From Actinomycetota bacterium (GTDB taxonomy: Bacteria > Actinomycetota > Acidimicrobiia > Acidimicrobiales > Ilumatobacteraceae), in the NCBI GenBank assembly GCA_009702045.1, contig WLIV01000005.1, positions 1 to 64,000 of the forward strand: a DNA stretch of 64,000 nt, given 5' to 3'. Below, one piece after another: positions 23,541 through 52,577 of this stretch. Position 1 is the stretch's first letter. Each line of letters begins with the position of its first letter. Made by a program: the position numbers and the translations under genes. The notes under the pieces are model-generated. The model ran no database searches. It saw only the letters and a program-made list of their open reading frames with translations, and was not told where the DNA came from.

Positions 23541-24008
23541 TCAGCCTGGCTTGAGGACGCCGCCGCCGAGCACCCAGCCCGTCCGCAGTGCGTACGGTAC
23601 GCCAATGATGCCGAGGTAGAAGCCACTGAGGTAGGCGCCGCTGAGGTAGGCGCCGGTCAGGTCGGCGCCGGTCAGGTCGGTGCAGGTGAGGTTGGCGTTT
23701 GTGAGGTTGGCGTTTGTGAGGTAGGCGCGGTTGAGGTGGGCGTCGGTGAGGTAGGCGCCGGTCAGGTTGGCGTCGGTGAGGCGGGCGCCGGTCAGGTTGG
23801 CGCCGGTCAGGTTGGCCCCCGGGCACTGTGTTACCGGTCCGATGTCGCAGCCGTTGATGATCAAGCCGGAGCGGCTGCCGCCCGAGACCGTGATCGCAAC
23901 AACGGTGCCGGTGATGGCAAGCACCGCGGCGACCGCGACGGCGATCAGGTTGCGGCGTCGGCGCCGGCTGCGGGGACTGGTTTCAGGTACGTCGAGGTTC
24001 GGGAGCAT
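23541..24008 (-). CDS. Membrane-anchored pentapeptide-repeat protein, array copy 1
   Basis: 155 residues. RRRRRN (about 15-20) precedes one membrane helix ([20 protein letters not shown]), giving a predicted N-in/C-out topology. A linker with GCDIGPVTQC carries two cysteines. About 13 pentapeptides of the A(N/D)LTx type follow, several with Tyr (AYLT, AYLS). The tail is IGVPYALRTGWVL-GGGVLKPG. Pentapeptide repeats fold as a right-handed beta-helix; here it would face outside the membrane, unlike cytosolic Qnr/MfpA. The function is unknown. It is the last copy before tRNA-Pro. Confidence 0.82.
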   Translation of the reverse strand: MLPNLDVPETSPRSRRRRRNLIAVAVAAVLAITGTVVAITVSGGSRSGLIINGCDIGPVTQCPGANLTGANLTGARLTDANLTGAYLTDAHLNRAYLTNANLTNANLTCTDLTGADLTGAYLSGAYLSGFYLGIIGVPYALRTGWVLGGGVLKPG

Positions 24009-24035
24009 CGGGCACCCTAACTGTCAACTGTCCTA
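24009..24035 (-). promoter_or_regulatory. Conserved promoter box, array copy 1
   Basis: On the minus strand the box reads TAGGACAGTTGACAGT, then TAGGGT and GCCCG before the ATG. The TANNNT hexamer ends five bases before the start codon, implying a near-leaderless mRNA. The consensus over all copies is TAGGACAGTTNNNGGT-TANNGT-GC. Confidence 0.65.
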
Positions 24036-24085
24036 CACGGTGATGGCGCCCTGGGCCACGAGCGCGAGCCGTAGCCGCGTTCGGG

Positions 24086-24574
24086 TCAGCCTGGCCGGAG
24101 GACACCGTCGGCGGTTACCAACCAACCTGTCGGCAGTGCCCTCGGCGTGCCTTTGACGCCGCGGTAGATGCCGCTGAGGTAGGCGCCGGGCATGTCGGCG
24201 CCGGCCAGGTCGGCGCCGTGGAGGCTGGCGCCGGTGAGGTCGGCGTAGTCGAGGTGGGCGTTGGAGAGGTCGGCGCCGCGGAGGTCGGCGTTGGAGAGGT
24301 CGGCGCTGCTGAGGTAGGCGGCGCCGGAGAGGTTGGCGCTGCGGAGGTTGGCGCCGGTGAGGTCGGCGCCGGTGAGGTTGGCCCCCGGGCACTGTGCGCC
24401 CGGGACGAGGTTGCAGCCGTTAATGATCGTGCCGGAGCGGCTGCCGCCTGAGACCGTGATCGCGACAACGGTGCCGGTGATGGCGAGCACCGCGGCGACC
24501 GCGACGGCGATCAGGTTGCGGCGTCGGCGCCGGCTGCGGGGACTGGCATCGGGCACGTCAGTGTTGGGAAGCAT
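24086..24574 (-). CDS. Membrane-anchored pentapeptide-repeat protein, array copy 2
   Basis: 162 residues. The N-terminus [20 protein letters not shown] and the helix that follows are nearly the same as in copy 1. The Cys pair is in [10 protein letters not shown]. Roughly 15 repeats follow ([16 protein letters not shown] type) with an AAYL irregularity near the first third. The tail is [22 protein letters not shown]. It shares its Cys-linker sequence with copy 5, which suggests sequence exchange between non-adjacent copies. Confidence 0.82.
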
Positions 24575-24603
24575 CGGGCACAGTAACCGCGAACTGTCCT
24601 ACC
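24575..24603 (-). promoter_or_regulatory. Conserved promoter box, array copy 2
   Basis: TAGGACAGTTCGCGGT followed by TACTGT, five bases from the ATG at 24574. The central three bases differ from copy 1 but the spacing is kept. Confidence 0.62.
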
Positions 24604-24607
24604 GGTT

Positions 24608-24629
24608 CGGCCCGCGTCGGCGCGGGCCG
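24608..24629 (-). terminator. Hairpin after array copy 3
   Basis: CGGCCCGCG-TCGG-CGCGGGCCG is a perfect 9-bp stem downstream of the stop at 24644 and upstream of the copy 2 promoter box, so it insulates the two genes. Confidence 0.6.
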
Positions 24630-24643
24630 TTGCCGTTTTCGGG

Positions 24644-25297
24644 TCAGCCTGGCTTGAGGACGCCGTTGACGAGCACCCAGCCCGTCGGTAGTGCGGCCGG
24701 TGTGAAGACGATGCCCCCTGAGGCCACGCCGGAGAGCTTTGCGCCGGTGAGGTCGGCGCCGTAGAGGTTGGCGCCGTAGAGGTTGGCGCCAGTGAAGTTA
24801 ACGCCTTGGGTGAGGTCGGCGCCGCGGAGGTTGGCGACGGCGAGATACGCGAAGATGAGGCTGGCACCTGTGAGGTTGGCACCCGTGAGGTTGGCACCCC
24901 TGAGGTCGGCGCCGTCGAGCCTTGCGCCGGAGAGGTCGGCGCCGGTGAGGTCGGCACCGTGGAGGTCGGCGCCCGCGAGGTTGGCGTGGCCGAGGTCGGT
25001 GCCGGTGAGGTTGGCGCCGAGGAGGTTGGCGCCGCTGAGGTTGGCGTCCCAGAGGTCGGCGCGGGTGAGGTCGGCACCCGCGAGGTTGGCGCCGTGGAGG
25101 TTGGCCTGCGGGCATTGACCATTCGGGCCGATGTCGCAGCCGTTGATGATCGTGCCGGAGCGACTGCCGCCGGAGACCGTGATCGCGACAACGGTGCCGG
25201 TGATGGCGAGCACTGCGACGACCGCGGCGGCGATCAGGTTGCGGCGTCGACGGCGGCTGCGCTGACTGGTTTCGGGCACGTCAGCGTTCGCAAGCAT
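24644..25297 (-). CDS. Membrane-anchored pentapeptide-repeat protein, array copy 3
   Basis: 217 residues, the second longest. The N-terminus ([20 protein letters not shown]) differs slightly and the helix has AAAVVAV. The linker is GCDIGPNGQCPQA. About 25 pentapeptides follow, mostly A(N/D)L(T/H/S)GA, interrupted by SLIFAYLAVANL and by VNFTGANLYG. The tail is GGIVFTPAALPTGW-VLVNGVLKPG. The LPTGW segment is a phrase I recall from other actinobacterial pentapeptide proteins. It is bounded by its own promoter box and hairpin. Confidence 0.82.
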   Translation of the reverse strand: MLANADVPETSQRSRRRRRNLIAAAVVAVLAITGTVVAITVSGGSRSGTIINGCDIGPNGQCPQANLHGANLAGADLTRADLWDANLSGANLLGANLTGTDLGHANLAGADLHGADLTGADLSGARLDGADLRGANLTGANLTGASLIFAYLAVANLRGADLTQGVNFTGANLYGANLYGADLTGAKLSGVASGGIVFTPAALPTGWVLVNGVLKPG

Positions 25298-25325
25298 CGG
25301 GCACCCTAACCGTGAACTGTCCTAC
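25298..25325 (-). promoter_or_regulatory. Conserved promoter box, array copy 3
   Basis: TAGGACAGTTCACGGT then TAGGGT, with GCCCG before the ATG at 25297. Confidence 0.62.
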
Positions 25326-25330
25326 CGGTT

Positions 25331-25352
25331 CGGCCCGCGTCGGAGCGGGCCG
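25331..25352 (-). terminator. Hairpin after array copy 4
   Basis: CGGCCCGC-GTCGGA-GCGGGCCG, an 8-bp stem between the stop at 25367 and the copy 3 promoter box; it is a variant of the hairpin at 24608. Confidence 0.55.
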
Positions 25353-25366
25353 TTGCCGTTTTCGGG

Positions 25367-25915
25367 TCAGCCTGGCTGGAGGACGTGGTCGACGAGTACC
25401 CAGCCCGTCGGGAGCGCCTTCGGAGTGCCGTATATTTGGAGCGTTGGTCGAATACCCGTGAGTTTGGCGGTACCGAGGTCGGCGCCTCCGAGATTGACAT
25501 TCACCAAGGTGGAGTTGTTGAAGACGGCGTTTGTGAGGATGGCGCTGCTGAGGTTGGTAGCTACGCCGCCACCCTCAAGGTTGGCGGAGTCGAAGCTCGC
25601 GCCGGTGAGGTCAGCGCCACTGAGGTTGGCCTGTGCAAGGCTGGCACCGTTGAAAATGGCGCCTCTGAGGTTGGCACCTTTGAGGTTGGCGTTGGCCAGG
25701 TTGGCGTTGGTGAAGTCGACGTCCGGGCATTGTGTTCGCGGTCCGATGGTGCAGCCGTTGATGATCGTGCCGGAGCGGCTGCCTCCCGAGACCGTGATCG
25801 CGACAACGGTGCCGGTGATGGCCAGCACCGCGACGACAGCGACGGCGATCAGGTTGCGGCGTCGGCGGCGGCTGCGGGGACTTGTGGTTTCGGGTACGTC
25901 GACGTTCGGGAGCAT
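25367..25915 (-). CDS. Membrane-anchored pentapeptide-repeat protein, array copy 4
   Basis: 182 residues. [20 protein letters not shown] leads into the helix; the linker is GCTIGPRTQCPDV. The pentapeptide part is more diverged than in other copies (FTNANLANANLKGANLRGAI, then NLEGGGVATNLSSAILTNAV, which breaks the pattern). The tail is IYGTPKALPTGWVLV-DHVLQPG. The irregular centre may mean a shorter, interrupted helix or relaxed constraint. The N-terminal coding block is almost the same as in copy 5. Confidence 0.8.
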   Translation of the reverse strand: MLPNVDVPETTSPRSRRRRRNLIAVAVVAVLAITGTVVAITVSGGSRSGTIINGCTIGPRTQCPDVDFTNANLANANLKGANLRGAIFNGASLAQANLSGADLTGASFDSANLEGGGVATNLSSAILTNAVFNNSTLVNVNLGGADLGTAKLTGIRPTLQIYGTPKALPTGWVLVDHVLQPG

Positions 25916-25943
25916 CGCGCACCCTAACCGTCAACTGTCCTGC
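25916..25943 (-). promoter_or_regulatory. Conserved promoter box, array copy 4
   Basis: Starts CAGGACAGTTGACGGT (first T changed to C), then TAGGGT and GCGCG before the ATG at 25915. Confidence 0.6.
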
Positions 25944-25992
25944 ACCGTGATGGGTCACGCTGCCACGAGCGCGGGCCGTAGCCGCTTTGGGG

Positions 25993-26481
25993 TCAGGCTG
26001 GCCGGAGGACGCTGCTGCTGAGGAGTATCCAGCCGGTCGGGAGCTTGGCCGGTGTGCCGATGATGTCGAGGTACCCGCCGCTGAGGTAGGCGTTCGTCAG
26101 GTTGGCCCCGTTCAGGTTGGCGTTGTGGAGGATGGTGCCTACGAGGAAGGCACTGCCGAGAGATGCGCCGGTCAGGTCGGCGCCATTCAAGTTGGCGCCC
26201 GAGAGGTCGGCGCCGAGGAGGTTGGCCCCGCTCAGGTTGGCCCCGCTCAGGTTGGCGCCGGTGAGGTCGGCGCCTTCGAGGTTGGCCCCCGGGCACTGTG
26301 CGCCCGGGACGAGGTTGCAGCCGTTAATGATCGTGCCGGAGCGGCTGCCGCCTGAGACCGTGATCGCGACAACGGTGCCGGTGATGGCGAGCACCGCGGC
26401 GACGGCGACGGCGATCAGGTTGCGGCGTCGACGGCGGCTGCGGGGACTTGTGGTTTCGGGTACGTCGACGTTCGGGAGCAT
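25993..26481 (-). CDS. Membrane-anchored pentapeptide-repeat protein, array copy 5
   Basis: 162 residues. The anchor matches copy 4 and the linker [13 protein letters not shown] matches copy 2, so this copy looks like a recombinant. About 16 regular repeats follow ([20 protein letters not shown]), then [14 protein letters not shown] and the tail [24 protein letters not shown]. The repeat face is rich in Asn/Asp and Gly and low in charge. Confidence 0.82.
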
Positions 26482-26509
26482 CGCGCACCCTAACCGTCAA
26501 CCGTCCTGC
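26482..26509 (-). promoter_or_regulatory. Conserved promoter box, array copy 5
   Basis: CAGGACGGTTGACGGT then TAGGGT, GCGCG, ATG at 26481. One more change (ACAG to ACGG) than copy 4. Beyond it, 26511-26652 carries no gene but includes a short relic of the anchor-coding block near 26536-26560. Confidence 0.58.
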
Positions 26510-26652
26510 ACGGTGGTGGCTCCCTGGGCCACGAGCGTGGCCGGTGATGGCAAGCACGGCAGCGACAGGGGCGAGGCATAACAGCGTGCGGTCACACTCG
26601 TGGCGCTGATCGGGCCGGGCGACATGACCGTCGAGGACGTCGACGGCGTGGG

Positions 26653-27264
26653 TCAGTTGTGTAGGGCGCCGTTGTTGGCTACCCAACTGACCGGCAAAGG
26701 AGAGGCTGGATAGCCGATGATGCCGCTGTACCAGCCGTAGAGGTGGGCGGTACTCATGTACGCGCCGGTGAGGTTGGCGCTGTGGAGGTTGGCGCCGGTG
26801 AGGTTGGCGCCCAAGAGGGTGACGCCGGTGAGGTTGGCGCCGTAGAGGTTGGCGCCGTAGAGGTCGGCGTTGGTGAGGTTGGCGTTGTCGGTGCGGTAGG
26901 TCGTCGAGTGGCCGAACTGGGTGCCGGTGAGGTTGGCAAGGCCGAGGTTGGCGTCGGTGAGGTCGGCTCCTTGGAGGTTGGCGCCGGTGAGGTTCGCTCC
27001 GCTGAGGTTGGCGCCACGGAGATTGGCGCTACCGAGGTCGACGCTGGCGAGGTTCGCGCCGCGGAGGTCGGCGCCGGGACACTGTGCGCTGGGGCCAATG
27101 TCGCAGGTGCCGACGAGCGTTCCGGAGCGACTGCCGCCGGAGACCGTGATCGCGACAACGGTGCCGGTGATGGCCAGCACTGCGGTGATGGCGGCGGCGA
27201 TCAGGGTGCGGCGGCGGCGGCGACTGCGGGGACTGGCGTCGAGTACGTCGAGGTTCGGGAGCAT
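26653..27264 (-). CDS. Membrane-anchored pentapeptide-repeat protein, array copy 6
   Basis: 203 residues. The N-terminus [20 protein letters not shown] precedes an anchor with more Ala/Ile changes; the linker [14 protein letters not shown] has the Cys pair shifted into a GTLVGTC context, shared with the plus-strand copy at 49769. About 22 repeats are interrupted by [20 protein letters not shown], a loop-like insertion. The tail is [20 protein letters not shown], diverged and shortened. Confidence 0.8.
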
Positions 27265-27293
27265 CGGGCACCCTAACCGTCAACTGTCCTGCA
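27265..27293 (-). promoter_or_regulatory. Conserved promoter box, array copy 6
   Basis: CAGGACAGTTGACGGT, TAGGGT, GCCCG, ATG at 27264. Confidence 0.6.
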
Positions 27294-49740: not shown

Positions 49741-49768
49741 GTAGGACAGTTGACGGTTAGGGTGCCGG
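49741..49768 (+). promoter_or_regulatory. Conserved pentapeptide-gene promoter box, eighth copy
   Basis: GTAGGACAGTTGACGGT, TAGGGT, GCCGG, ATG: an exact consensus copy of the array box 22 kb away, on the opposite strand. Confidence 0.65.
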
Positions 49769-50185
49769 ATGCTCCCGAAGGTCGACGCGCCCGAAACCAC
49801 CAGTCCCCGTAGCCGTCGCCGCCGCCGCAACCTGATCGCCGTCGCGGTCGCCGCGGTGCTGGCCATCACCGGCACCGTTGTCGCGATCACAGCCTCAGGC
49901 GGCAGTCGCTCCGGCGCGCTCGTCGGCACCTGCGACATCGGCCCGAACGCTCAATGTCCGGGCGCCCACCTCACCGGCGCCGACCTCACCGGCGCCAACC
50001 TCACCCGCGCCAACCTCACCCGCGCCGATCTCACCGGCGCCACCGTCACCGGCGCCTACCTCACCGACGCCAACCTCGCCAGCGTGAGCTCGAGCGGCAT
50101 CATTGGCACGCCAAAGACACTCCCGATCGGCTCAGCGGCCAGACGGCTCGACACAGCGTTGGCGGTCGAGAGTCACACGATCTAG
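49769..50185 (+). CDS. Pentapeptide-repeat protein with anchor, shortened outlying copy
   Basis: A 138-residue relative of the array proteins: the same RRRRRN anchor and helix, and a GTCDIGPNAQC linker closest to array copy 6. Only about nine pentapeptides follow ([20 protein letters not shown]). The tail begins IIGTPKTLPIGS but then departs from the family (AARRLDTALAVESHTI), so the last 22 residues look rebuilt by recombination. It may still be expressed. Confidence 0.75.
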   Translation: MLPKVDAPETTSPRSRRRRRNLIAVAVAAVLAITGTVVAITASGGSRSGALVGTCDIGPNAQCPGAHLTGADLTGANLTRANLTRADLTGATVTGAYLTDANLASVSSSGIIGTPKTLPIGSAARRLDTALAVESHTI

Positions 50186-50209
50186 GACAGTTCATGGTTA
50201 ATGTGCACC
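50183..50209 (+). promoter_or_regulatory. Promoter box before anchor-only ORF 1
   Basis: TAGGACAGTTCATGGT, TAATGT, GCACC, ATG. The TAATGT hexamer is the best -10 match of the family. The box overlaps the stop codon of the preceding gene. Confidence 0.6.
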
Positions 50210-50362
50210 ATGCTTCCGAACACTGATCAGCCCGCCACAGGCCGTCGCAGCCATCGCCGTCGCATGGTCGGCTGGTCCATCGTGGCGGTGATCACGGTTC
50301 TCGCAGTCGCGATCCTGATCGCGTTCGCCACTGGGACGATTGGCCGTTCCGGCGCGTTCTGA
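50210..50362 (+). CDS. Anchor-only paralogue 1 (no pentapeptides)
   Basis: A 50-residue ORF: MLPNTDQPATGRRSHRRRM, then a membrane helix (SIVAVITVLAVAILIAFATG) and TIGRSGAF before TGA. It keeps the family's N-terminus, basic stretch and helix but has no Cys linker or repeats. It could be a tiny membrane protein or a truncated remnant. Confidence 0.5.
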   Translation: MLPNTDQPATGRRSHRRRMVGWSIVAVITVLAVAILIAFATGTIGRSGAF

Positions 50363-50429
50363 AATGGTCTGACCCTGGAATCGCGCGTTCGGCGGTAGTT
50401 GAATCTCGGGCACTGATGAGGAGGTCATC

Positions 50430-50636
50430 GTGCCAAGGAGATGCCCGGTCGAGCTCCGTCGCAATGTGCTCGATCTGACCGAGGCCGGCAAGCCGGTCGC
50501 AGAGATCGCCGTGCCACTCGGGATCACTGCTCAGACGGTTTACAACTGGCGAAACCAGGATCAGATCGATCGCGGGCTTCGCGTCGGGATGTCGACGAGT
50601 GAGTCCCGCGCGCGGAGGGTGAGTCCCACCACGTGA
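50430..50636 (+). pseudogene. IS3-family OrfA-like transposase fragment
   Basis: A 68-residue frame: MPRRCPVELRRNVLDLTEAG and GITAQTVYNWRNQDQIDRGL are the HTH of IS3-type OrfA; the family pattern is lost after GMSTSES. A GTG with AGGAGG upstream is the original start. TGACCCTGGAATCGCG at 50370-50385 may be the left terminal repeat. No OrfB or right end is present, so it is a relic. Confidence 0.65.
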
Positions 50637-50683
50637 CTGAGGTCGGCACACCGGCAGCGTTGGCGGCCGAGGGTCCCACGATC

Positions 50684-50710
50684 TAGGACAGTTCATGGTT
50701 ACTGTGCACC
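50684..50710 (+). promoter_or_regulatory. Promoter box before anchor-only ORF 2
   Basis: TAGGACAGTTCATGGT, TACTGT, GCACC, ATG: same as box 50183 apart from the -10 centre. Confidence 0.6.
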
Positions 50711-50869
50711 ATGCTTCCGACCACTGATCAGTCCACTGACGGCCACCGCAGCCAACGCCATCGCCGTCGCATGGTCGGCTGGTCCATCGTGGCGGTGATC
50801 GTGGTCATCGCAGTCGCGATCCTGATCGCGTTCGCCACCGGAACAATTGGCCGTTCCGGCATGGTCTGA
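50711..50869 (+). CDS. Anchor-only paralogue 2 (no pentapeptides)
   Basis: A 52-residue ORF: MLPTTDQSTDGHRSQRHRRR, helix SIVAVIVVIAVAILIAFATG, then TIGRSGMV. It differs from paralogue 1 at about a dozen residues yet stays open, and several changes are conservative, which hints at some selection. The 157 bases after it hold no gene. Confidence 0.5.
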   Translation: MLPTTDQSTDGHRSQRHRRRMVGWSIVAVIVVIAVAILIAFATGTIGRSGMV

Positions 50870-51026
50870 AACGACTCGACAATGCGCGGCGGGCAATCAC
50901 CTCGTTGAGTGAACGAGTCCACGCGTTACGTGAGAAACCAGGAGAAACCGACTGTCGTTAGCCCCTGGGTTCTGACTCACCACGCGCTCACGCTGACGCG
51001 TAACTCCTTACTACGAGGTGGTCGGC

Positions 51027-52109
51027 ATGCGCTCTCGATTGATTCTCTCCACTCTTGGTGTCACTGCCTTGGTGCTCCTCTCCACGGCAGGGACGAGAAC
51101 CGTTCAGGCCGCGAACCGAGATGTCGATGTCGACTGCTTTGCCAATGAAGGTGATCATGACTGGTTCGTCGCCACCGGCGACACGATCACCTTCACCCTC
51201 ACGAACTGTGATCAGTTCCAGATCGCCGACTTCGATGGAGCCATCTTGGACAGCGGCACCATTGTTGCGCCGATCGTGGTGAATGCAGGAGAGGTTGCCA
51301 CGTTCACCGATACCGGCACATCAACGCAACACGCAGCCTCGGTCACTGCGCTGTCACCCGAACACGTCCCGGCCGGTGTCCTGAATGTGACGTCATCCGT
51401 CACCATCCCGGCGGTCGCACCGGAACTGGATCTGAGTTCCGACAACTTAGGCAATGGCGACCATTACGTGGGCGACTCCGACAGCAGTTGCGCAGTCACC
51501 GCTGGAATGCATGTGTACGGGGCCTTGGCGGTCACCATCGACCAGGCCGGCACGTTCACATTCCGCGCGGTGGAATCGGACCCTGTCAGTCGGGCTGTGG
51601 ACCCTCTTGCAGCCTTCGCTCCGGTGCTCGATCCGATGCTGGCGCTGTACTCGACATTCGACCCCGCCATCCCGGACAACGGTGTCGTGGGCTGAAATGA
51701 CGACCTCGACACCCAGTTCGACTATCCGAGCGCCGTCGGCCCTGTCGCGGAGGCATTGTCCGGTGGACGCGTCATGGCCGATGTCTTCCCCTACTTCGTC
51801 GCCGACCTACAGCCGGGTGCCTACACGTTGGTGCTGCTCACCTACTCGGACGTCAGCGCTGAGGAGTGGGCGACAGGCGACAGTCTTGCCGGAATGTTCA
51901 CCCCTGGGGCCGAGACCGTGACGTTCGAGATGTGTGGCCCGCAAGGTTCCGTGTCCGTGTGCACGACTGCCTGCACGCCGATCATCATCCCAGACGTGTT
52001 GCCGCCCACTGGCGCCAACACGGCGTCGGCGTTCTTTGCGGCCGCTGCGGTCATGTTCGGTGGTGCCCTCGTCATCGGGTCGCGTCGCCGTCGGATCAGG
52101 ACCCGCTGA
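51027..52109 (+). pseudogene. LPXTG cell-wall surface protein, interrupted by in-frame TGA
   Basis: One frame spans 51027-52109 (360 codons) with a single internal TGA at 51693-51695. Part 1: signal peptide (LSTLGVTALVLLSTAG), then beta-rich domains. Part 2 continues in the same frame (NDDLDTQFDYPSAVGPVAE ... YFVADLQPGAYTLVLLTYS) to a sorting signal: LPPTG, membrane helix, basic RRRR tail. So it was a sortase-anchored surface protein. The codon replaced is probably Cys or Trp, going by VVG-x-NDD. It is either a nonsense mutation or, less likely, recoded. A restart at ATG 51774 is possible but would lack a signal peptide. Confidence 0.7.
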
Positions 52110-52132
52110 CCCACACCGACGCTCACCCCATT

Positions 52133-52169
52133 CTGAGTCACCGCCCAGACGTTGTGGGCGGTGACTCAG
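52133..52169 (+). terminator. 15-bp perfect hairpin after LPXTG gene
   Basis: CTGAGTCACCGCCCA and its exact inverse around GACGTTG, 24 bases after the LPXTG stop. It is the longest perfect stem in the window and suggests this unit was recently functional. Confidence 0.75.
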
Positions 52170-52235
52170 AGGCGTCCGAGGAGGCGTCCGGGACCCGGTC
52201 GGGGGTGGTCGGCGACCGGGGTAGGCTCCTGGCCC

Positions 52236-52577
52236 ATGGTGATCGAGGAGCGAGACGGATACCGCTTGTGGGTGGGTGGTCCGGTGCCCAAGGGTGCCGA
52301 CGGCTTCACGCTGGGGTCGCTGGTCATCGTGCGCCGCGGTGCCGACACGGCGTACCTCCTGCGCCACGAACAGGTGCATGTCCGGCAATGGCGGCGCTTC
52401 GGCGCCGTCGGCTTCATCCGTCGCTACGTCGGGCACTACGTGCTGTGGCGTCTGCGCGGGAAGGATCACCAGGGTGCGTACCGTCGCATTCCGATGGAGA
52501 TCGAGGCCGACTGGGTGGCTCGTCGTCAGCTCGCGACTGCCGTGCGCGACGAACTTTCCCACAGCGTCGCGTCGTAG
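52236..52577 (+). CDS. Small HExxH-containing protein (DUF4157-like)
   Basis: A 113-residue protein with LLRHEQVHVRQW (a HEQVH zinc-protease-type motif, residues about 49-53) and MEIEADWVARRQ downstream, placing a Glu that could be a third zinc ligand. Short proteins of this type are common near actinobacterial genes of unknown role; catalytic activity is unproven. TAGGCT lies eight bases before the ATG. Confidence 0.65.
   Translation: MVIEERDGYRLWVGGPVPKGADGFTLGSLVIVRRGADTAYLLRHEQVHVRQWRRFGAVGFIRRYVGHYVLWRLRGKDHQGAYRRIPMEIEADWVARRQLATAVRDELSHSVAS

Follow-up and report, generated by a model that had tools for sequence, protein, structure and literature searches.

We examined a 64,000-nt stretch of DNA from an Actinomycetota bacterium of the Ilumatobacteraceae (contig WLIV01000005.1, positions 1 to 64,000; here called the window) and found a gene for an LPPTG surface protein that is interrupted by one in-frame TGA. 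The best reading, to which we assign a probability of about 0.82, is a single nonsense change that struck a conserved cysteine codon and left a recent pseudogene or null allele. The frame runs from position 51027 to 52109 on the plus strand, with the TGA at 51693 to 51695 as its only interruption. The stop lies in the context GGC-TGA-AAT (51690 to 51698), in phase with the ATG at 51027 (or a GTG at 51018), and the frame ends with a TGA at 52107 to 52109. The gene thus falls into three parts:

51027 to 51692, plus strand: head of the surface-protein gene, 222 codons, homologous to proteins of the genomes G011, G044, and G045
51693 to 51695, plus strand: in-frame TGA, in a column that holds Cys in three of three relatives
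51696 to 52109, plus strand: tail of the surface-protein gene, 137 codons plus the terminal TGA

An initial annotation, made from the sequence alone, had reported an in-frame TGA inside an LPXTG surface-protein gene at this site, and both the frame and the homology of the tail confirm it. The 138 codons it counted past the TGA are correct if the terminal TGA is included, the number of sense codons being 137. By eye, the head begins with a signal-peptide-like N terminus. The tail contains LPPTG (51999 to 52013), followed by a hydrophobic segment and then by RRRRIRTR. When the protein was searched with an X at the stop, it passed the cut-off of the NCBIfam model LPXTG_anchor (TIGR01167; 16.8 versus 15.9 bits, E = 0.0083) and fell narrowly under that of Pfam Gram_pos_anchor (PF00746; 19.1 versus 20 bits). 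The description of the tail as coherent protein ending in LPPTG, a helix, and arginines therefore holds, both by this match and by homology to intact relatives. The sorting signal is recognized solely through the frame 3' of the TGA, and its predicted loss if the stop is not read through stands, with LPPTG lying 3' of the stop. Since four sortase matches (PF04203) above the cut-off were found in the same genome, the wall anchor of the surface protein could have been used. Among 2,000 mononucleotide shuffles of the tail, 80 were also open; the open tail on its own is weak evidence for coding, and homology is strong evidence.

A comparison with relatives, as proposed in the initial annotation, showed GCNDD in all three that cover the site (G011, G044, and G045), where the window has G-stop-NDD; the three are partly dependent, G044 and G045 belonging to the same genus and being 72% identical to each other. 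The homologues in G044 (L024, JAFMEI010000077.1, an Ilumatobacteraceae bacterium metagenome-assembled genome [MAG]) and G045 (L025, CAIYHK010000016.1, an uncultured actinobacterium MAG) have the same length and architecture as the window gene, at 37% and about 35% identity, and share with it the signal-like start, the GxNDD stretch, and the LPPTG-helix-basic end. In contrast to the window gene, both are full-length with no stops, have Cys at the stop column, and remain open from end to end across the site. Identity of the tail to these two intact relatives is 54/130 (41.5%) and 49/130 (37.7%), compared with 74/216 (34.3%) and 66/218 (30.3%) for the head 5' of the stop. The Cys in the relatives, together with the homology of the tail, indicates that the tail is real protein and that the expected residue is Cys rather than Trp, so that of the earlier expectation of "Cys or Trp" at VVG-x-NDD only Cys is borne out.

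Homologues of the gene are sparsely distributed. A second copy was not found in the genome itself, where two other LPXTG proteins match in the sorting-signal region only. Of the 14 other genomes of the genus, 2 gave a match: G011 holds a homologous copy, and G012 matches in the sorting-signal region only, which leaves a homologue beyond the sorting signal in 1 of the 14, where it is shortened. Across the family, at least 4 of 221 genomes match at an E value of 1e-5 or better, namely, the genome under study (G000), G011, G044, and G045. Scans of genome contigs for further relatives found none with a single protein and, with an alignment, only the G044 and G045 genes that were already known. At the level of the order (397 genomes) and of the class (395 genomes), both sampled from larger groups, profile searches added nothing new but a short C-terminal match in G256. 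In the family, order, and class searches, first-look candidates were scored in part for some genomes, and distant relatives may be missed.

Under the preferred reading, a single nonsense change would have hit the conserved Cys codon, and translation would end after residue 222. The product would be an exported, unanchored fragment that lacks half of its beta-sandwich and is probably degraded. Possible in-frame restart codons 3' of the stop are ATG at 51774 and TTG at 51756, either of which would give a product without a signal peptide. As in a nonsense pseudogene, the stop lies inside a frame that is spanned by the open homologues of G044 and G045. The lesion appears recent because the tail carries no second stop or frameshift, and loss of the gene appears tolerated because the gene is so sparsely distributed. 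However, a base-call error, or a frame still under selection, would leave the tail free of a second lesion just as well. Conservation of the tail, which is no lower than that of the head, counts against a pseudogene, yet most of it dates from before the lesion. As a broken gene, the locus is of small import: it adds another case in which a lineage has lost a surface protein of sparse distribution.

To assess what the truncation removes, a three-row alignment was used to model an intact relative; the mean pLDDT was 56.7, rising to 86 to 88 in the best ten-residue blocks. In this predicted model, the stop column corresponds to residue 226 of the relative, the last residue of the strand 223 to 226, and further strands follow 3' of it at 257 to 262, 265 to 273, 298 to 306, and 311 to 313. 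Structural matches were mostly beta-sandwiches and covered model residues of about 115 to 315. They include pre-peptidase C-terminal (PPC) and collagen-binding-type domains (1nqj, Z = 7.5 over 91 residues; 5sv5, Z = 7.2 over 90). The two top-ranked matches, 7n6g (Z = 9.3) and 9ev7 (Z = 8.1), have names that point to no relationship. Foldseek returned one match, 5wtb (SdrE), with an E value of 9.7e-4 and a TM-score of 0.14 to 0.15. Sequence searches gave no convincing solved structure (best E = 0.11) and no Pfam domain around the stop site, and NF038127 reached 14.3 versus 29 bits (E = 0.04) in one relative. The predicted jelly-roll around the site thus resembles PPC/collagen-binding-type beta-sandwiches, but the window protein differs from PPC-type domains in having no Pfam match, and the Z values are middling on a weak model. 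We therefore withhold a domain-family name, as a model with a pLDDT of 56.7 built from three sequences, and Z values that name no family, do not support one. Judged from the model, the truncated product would lose the anchor and about half of a beta-sandwich domain.

A TGA facing cysteine in homologues is the signature of selenoproteins, and the window gene shares with bacterial selenoproteins that have Cys homologues exactly this likeness. Selenocysteine insertion, which the initial annotation had left open, was therefore assessed by searching the machinery in the genome, which is 99.45% complete. No match was found for selA. None of 11 selB matches exceeded the cut-off, and we take the best two of them, one of which is truncated at the edge of a contig, to be EF-Tu. 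Both selD matches were below the cut-off, the better one presumably being a HypE-like protein. None of the 13 matches to the Rfam tRNA-Sec (selC) model reached the gathering score: the highest, at 44 versus 47 bits, is typed by ARAGORN as tRNA-Gly and the second-best as tRNA-Leu. Among 14 control genomes, the cut-offs were passed in 1 (selA), 2 (selB), 5 (selC), and 2 (selD). Detection of tRNA-Sec by Secmarker is described in one benchmark as a perfect marker of selenoprotein genomes (PMC5330540); the search here used the Rfam model instead of Secmarker. Folding of three stretches after the stop was not notable (z = 0.81, -0.33, and -0.64; general folding, not a SECIS program), and Rfam models over 51000 to 52300 gave only one chance-level match (RF01333 at 52009 to 52042, E = 2.8). 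The checks that the initial annotation had suggested, for a SECIS and for selA, selB, and selC, thus turned up no notable fold and nothing above the cut-offs. Unlike bacterial selenoproteins, the gene has no notable hairpin downstream of the stop, and its genome has no machinery above the cut-offs. With selA unmatched and selB, selC, and selD nowhere above their family cut-offs, selenocysteine at this TGA is rejected as far as the assembly goes, and we regard it as extremely improbable. The gene illustrates cleanly why, where TGA faces Cys, the machinery should be checked before claiming a selenoprotein. Organism-wide reading of TGA as a sense codon would likewise open the frame, but its probability is negligible: TGA closes 45 of 60 complete open reading frames (ORFs) in the window, TAG 13, and TAA 2. 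These 60 are rough picks by composition score, among them the ORF closed by the stop in question, the tail counted as a separate ORF, and some doubtful ORFs. With the stop in question set aside, 44 of 59 end in TGA, and the surface-protein gene itself does so. The genome has 46 tRNA-family matches, 45 of them above the cut-off and all 45 with an anticodon assigned by ARAGORN; the remaining match falls below the cut-off and does not correspond to an ARAGORN gene. None of the 45 anticodons is UCA, tRNA-Trp having CCA and tRNA-Cys GCA. A suppressor tRNA or a code change was therefore rejected, TGA being the commonest stop and a UCA anticodon being absent. With Cys in three of three relatives and selenocysteine rejected, the view that a single nonsense change is the simplest reading gains support.

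Two further explanations leave the protein, or some of it, intact. Functional readthrough, in which near-cognate tRNA-Trp or tRNA-Cys would read part of the UGA and thus yield released and wall-anchored forms, is in line with the intact tail and with published reports. UGA is described as the leakiest bacterial stop, with rates in E. coli and Salmonella of 1e-2 to 1e-3 (PMC4989110); in E. coli, its decoding is described as inserting Trp for the most part but Cys as well, with up to 14% reported under one condition (PMC11126739). Given these reports, some full-length protein may arise by chance; support for a role was not found. A conserved stop is given as the criterion that separates readthrough genes from pseudogenes (PMC1914089), and the stop is conserved in none of the three relatives, although species-specific readthrough escapes that method and would evade the test here. 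The same source describes readthrough with canonical amino acids as quite rare in prokaryotes (PMC1914089), and no notable structure follows the stop, so functional readthrough is distinctly unlikely. There is also a slim prospect that the organism tolerates the TGA as a leaky stop, where the majority of the protein would be released and a minority, with Cys or Trp inserted by a near-cognate tRNA, anchored to the wall, the extent of anchoring varying with growth conditions. If readthrough were useful, the gene would be unusual among bacteria in having a stop codon fix the balance between released and anchored surface protein. The main rival is that the assembly has a wrong consensus or base call here and that the gene is intact in the organism. 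In favour of this, the frame is unbroken but for one difference of the substitution type, the tail is conserved, and the assembly consists of 56 contigs. Errors of a single base that create stops would, however, be rare if this is a deep short-read assembly, and loss of the gene is credible on other grounds, given its sparse distribution and the shortened copy in the sister species. We consider an assembly error improbable, with a small but real chance of being right, and retain a nonsense mutation as the best reading.

Downstream of the surface-protein gene, one further feature was identified:

52132 to 52170, plus strand: perfect inverted repeat with 16-bp arms (52132 to 52147 and 52155 to 52170) and a 7-nt loop

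This hairpin folds strongly (z = -6.04 versus shuffles), and the flank that contains it aligns to G011. It had been described as a perfect 15-bp terminator; the perfect repeat and the strong fold are upheld, but the arms measure 16 bp, no T-run follows, and a terminator scan has no entry for it. The repeat is a possible terminator.

Upstream of the gene, the window contains the following:

49769 to 50185, plus strand: gene for a pentapeptide-repeat protein of 138 amino acids (Pfam Pentapeptide, E = 3.7e-13)
50210 to 50362, plus strand: stub of 50 codons that resembles the start of the pentapeptide gene only (by eye, by repeats D2, D3, and D5, and by a 37-nt element)
50430 to 50636, plus strand: transposase-like helix-turn-helix fragment of 68 amino acids (HTH_23, 28.5 bits; HTH_Tnp_1, 26.5 bits)
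50711 to 50869, plus strand: second stub, 52 codons (by eye, by repeats, and by a 37-nt element)

On the helix-turn-helix fragment, Terminase_5 (23.3 bits) is above its cut-off, as are HTH_23 and HTH_Tnp_1. The G011 copy of the surface-protein gene (L012/L017) lies at the same chromosomal place between the same flanking genes and has GCNDD at the site. The stop is absent there, but the gene is shortened: it has the start of the pentapeptide gene and lacks an inner stretch as well as the C-terminal part with the sorting signal. At positions 973 to 1728 of L012, a single open frame of 252 amino acids runs from the pentapeptide start into the surface-protein gene, a fusion that possibly reflects domain exchange or an assembly artefact (about 510 contigs). 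Four flanking genes, one of them compared in part, differ from those of G011 by dS values of 0.11 to 0.38 and dN values of 0.005 to 0.055, versus a dN of 0.28 and a dS of 0.86 for the surface-protein gene (177 codons). For the 51 codons directly 5' of the stop, dN is 0.12 and dS is 1.20, a pattern that, as judged from these substitution rates, shows purifying selection on the stretch adjoining the stop before the presumed lesion. The locus seems to hold old divergent alleles, as if alleles had been exchanged, instead of plain vertical copies. With stub duplicates, a transposase-like fragment, and the shortened G011 copy, the surroundings look rearranged, which agrees with a locus that is rearranging and decaying and is not proof of one.

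The two stubs belong to two short membrane-protein units (50176 to 50871) that are 88% alike, each consisting of the 37-nt element and a membrane segment without pentapeptide repeats. The unit has eight matches in the genome, including the query, with weaker ones on contigs C7 and C56 (L035, L037, L039, and L040). On C56, a weak tRNA-like remnant (116796 to 116857, L085; 27.1 bits, below the cut-off and not an ARAGORN gene) is flanked on either side by a weak match to the short unit. The 37-nt element abuts the start codon and occurs nine times in the window with at most three mismatches (0 expected from 100 shuffles): six times on the minus strand within 23999 to 27291 and, on the plus strand, at 49742 to 49778, 50183 to 50219, and 50684 to 50720. 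It heads pentapeptide-repeat membrane-type proteins; two of the six minus-strand ORFs were translated, and both have repeats, one of them confirmed by Pfam. A TANNNT-like motif near the ATG suggests leaderless transcription.
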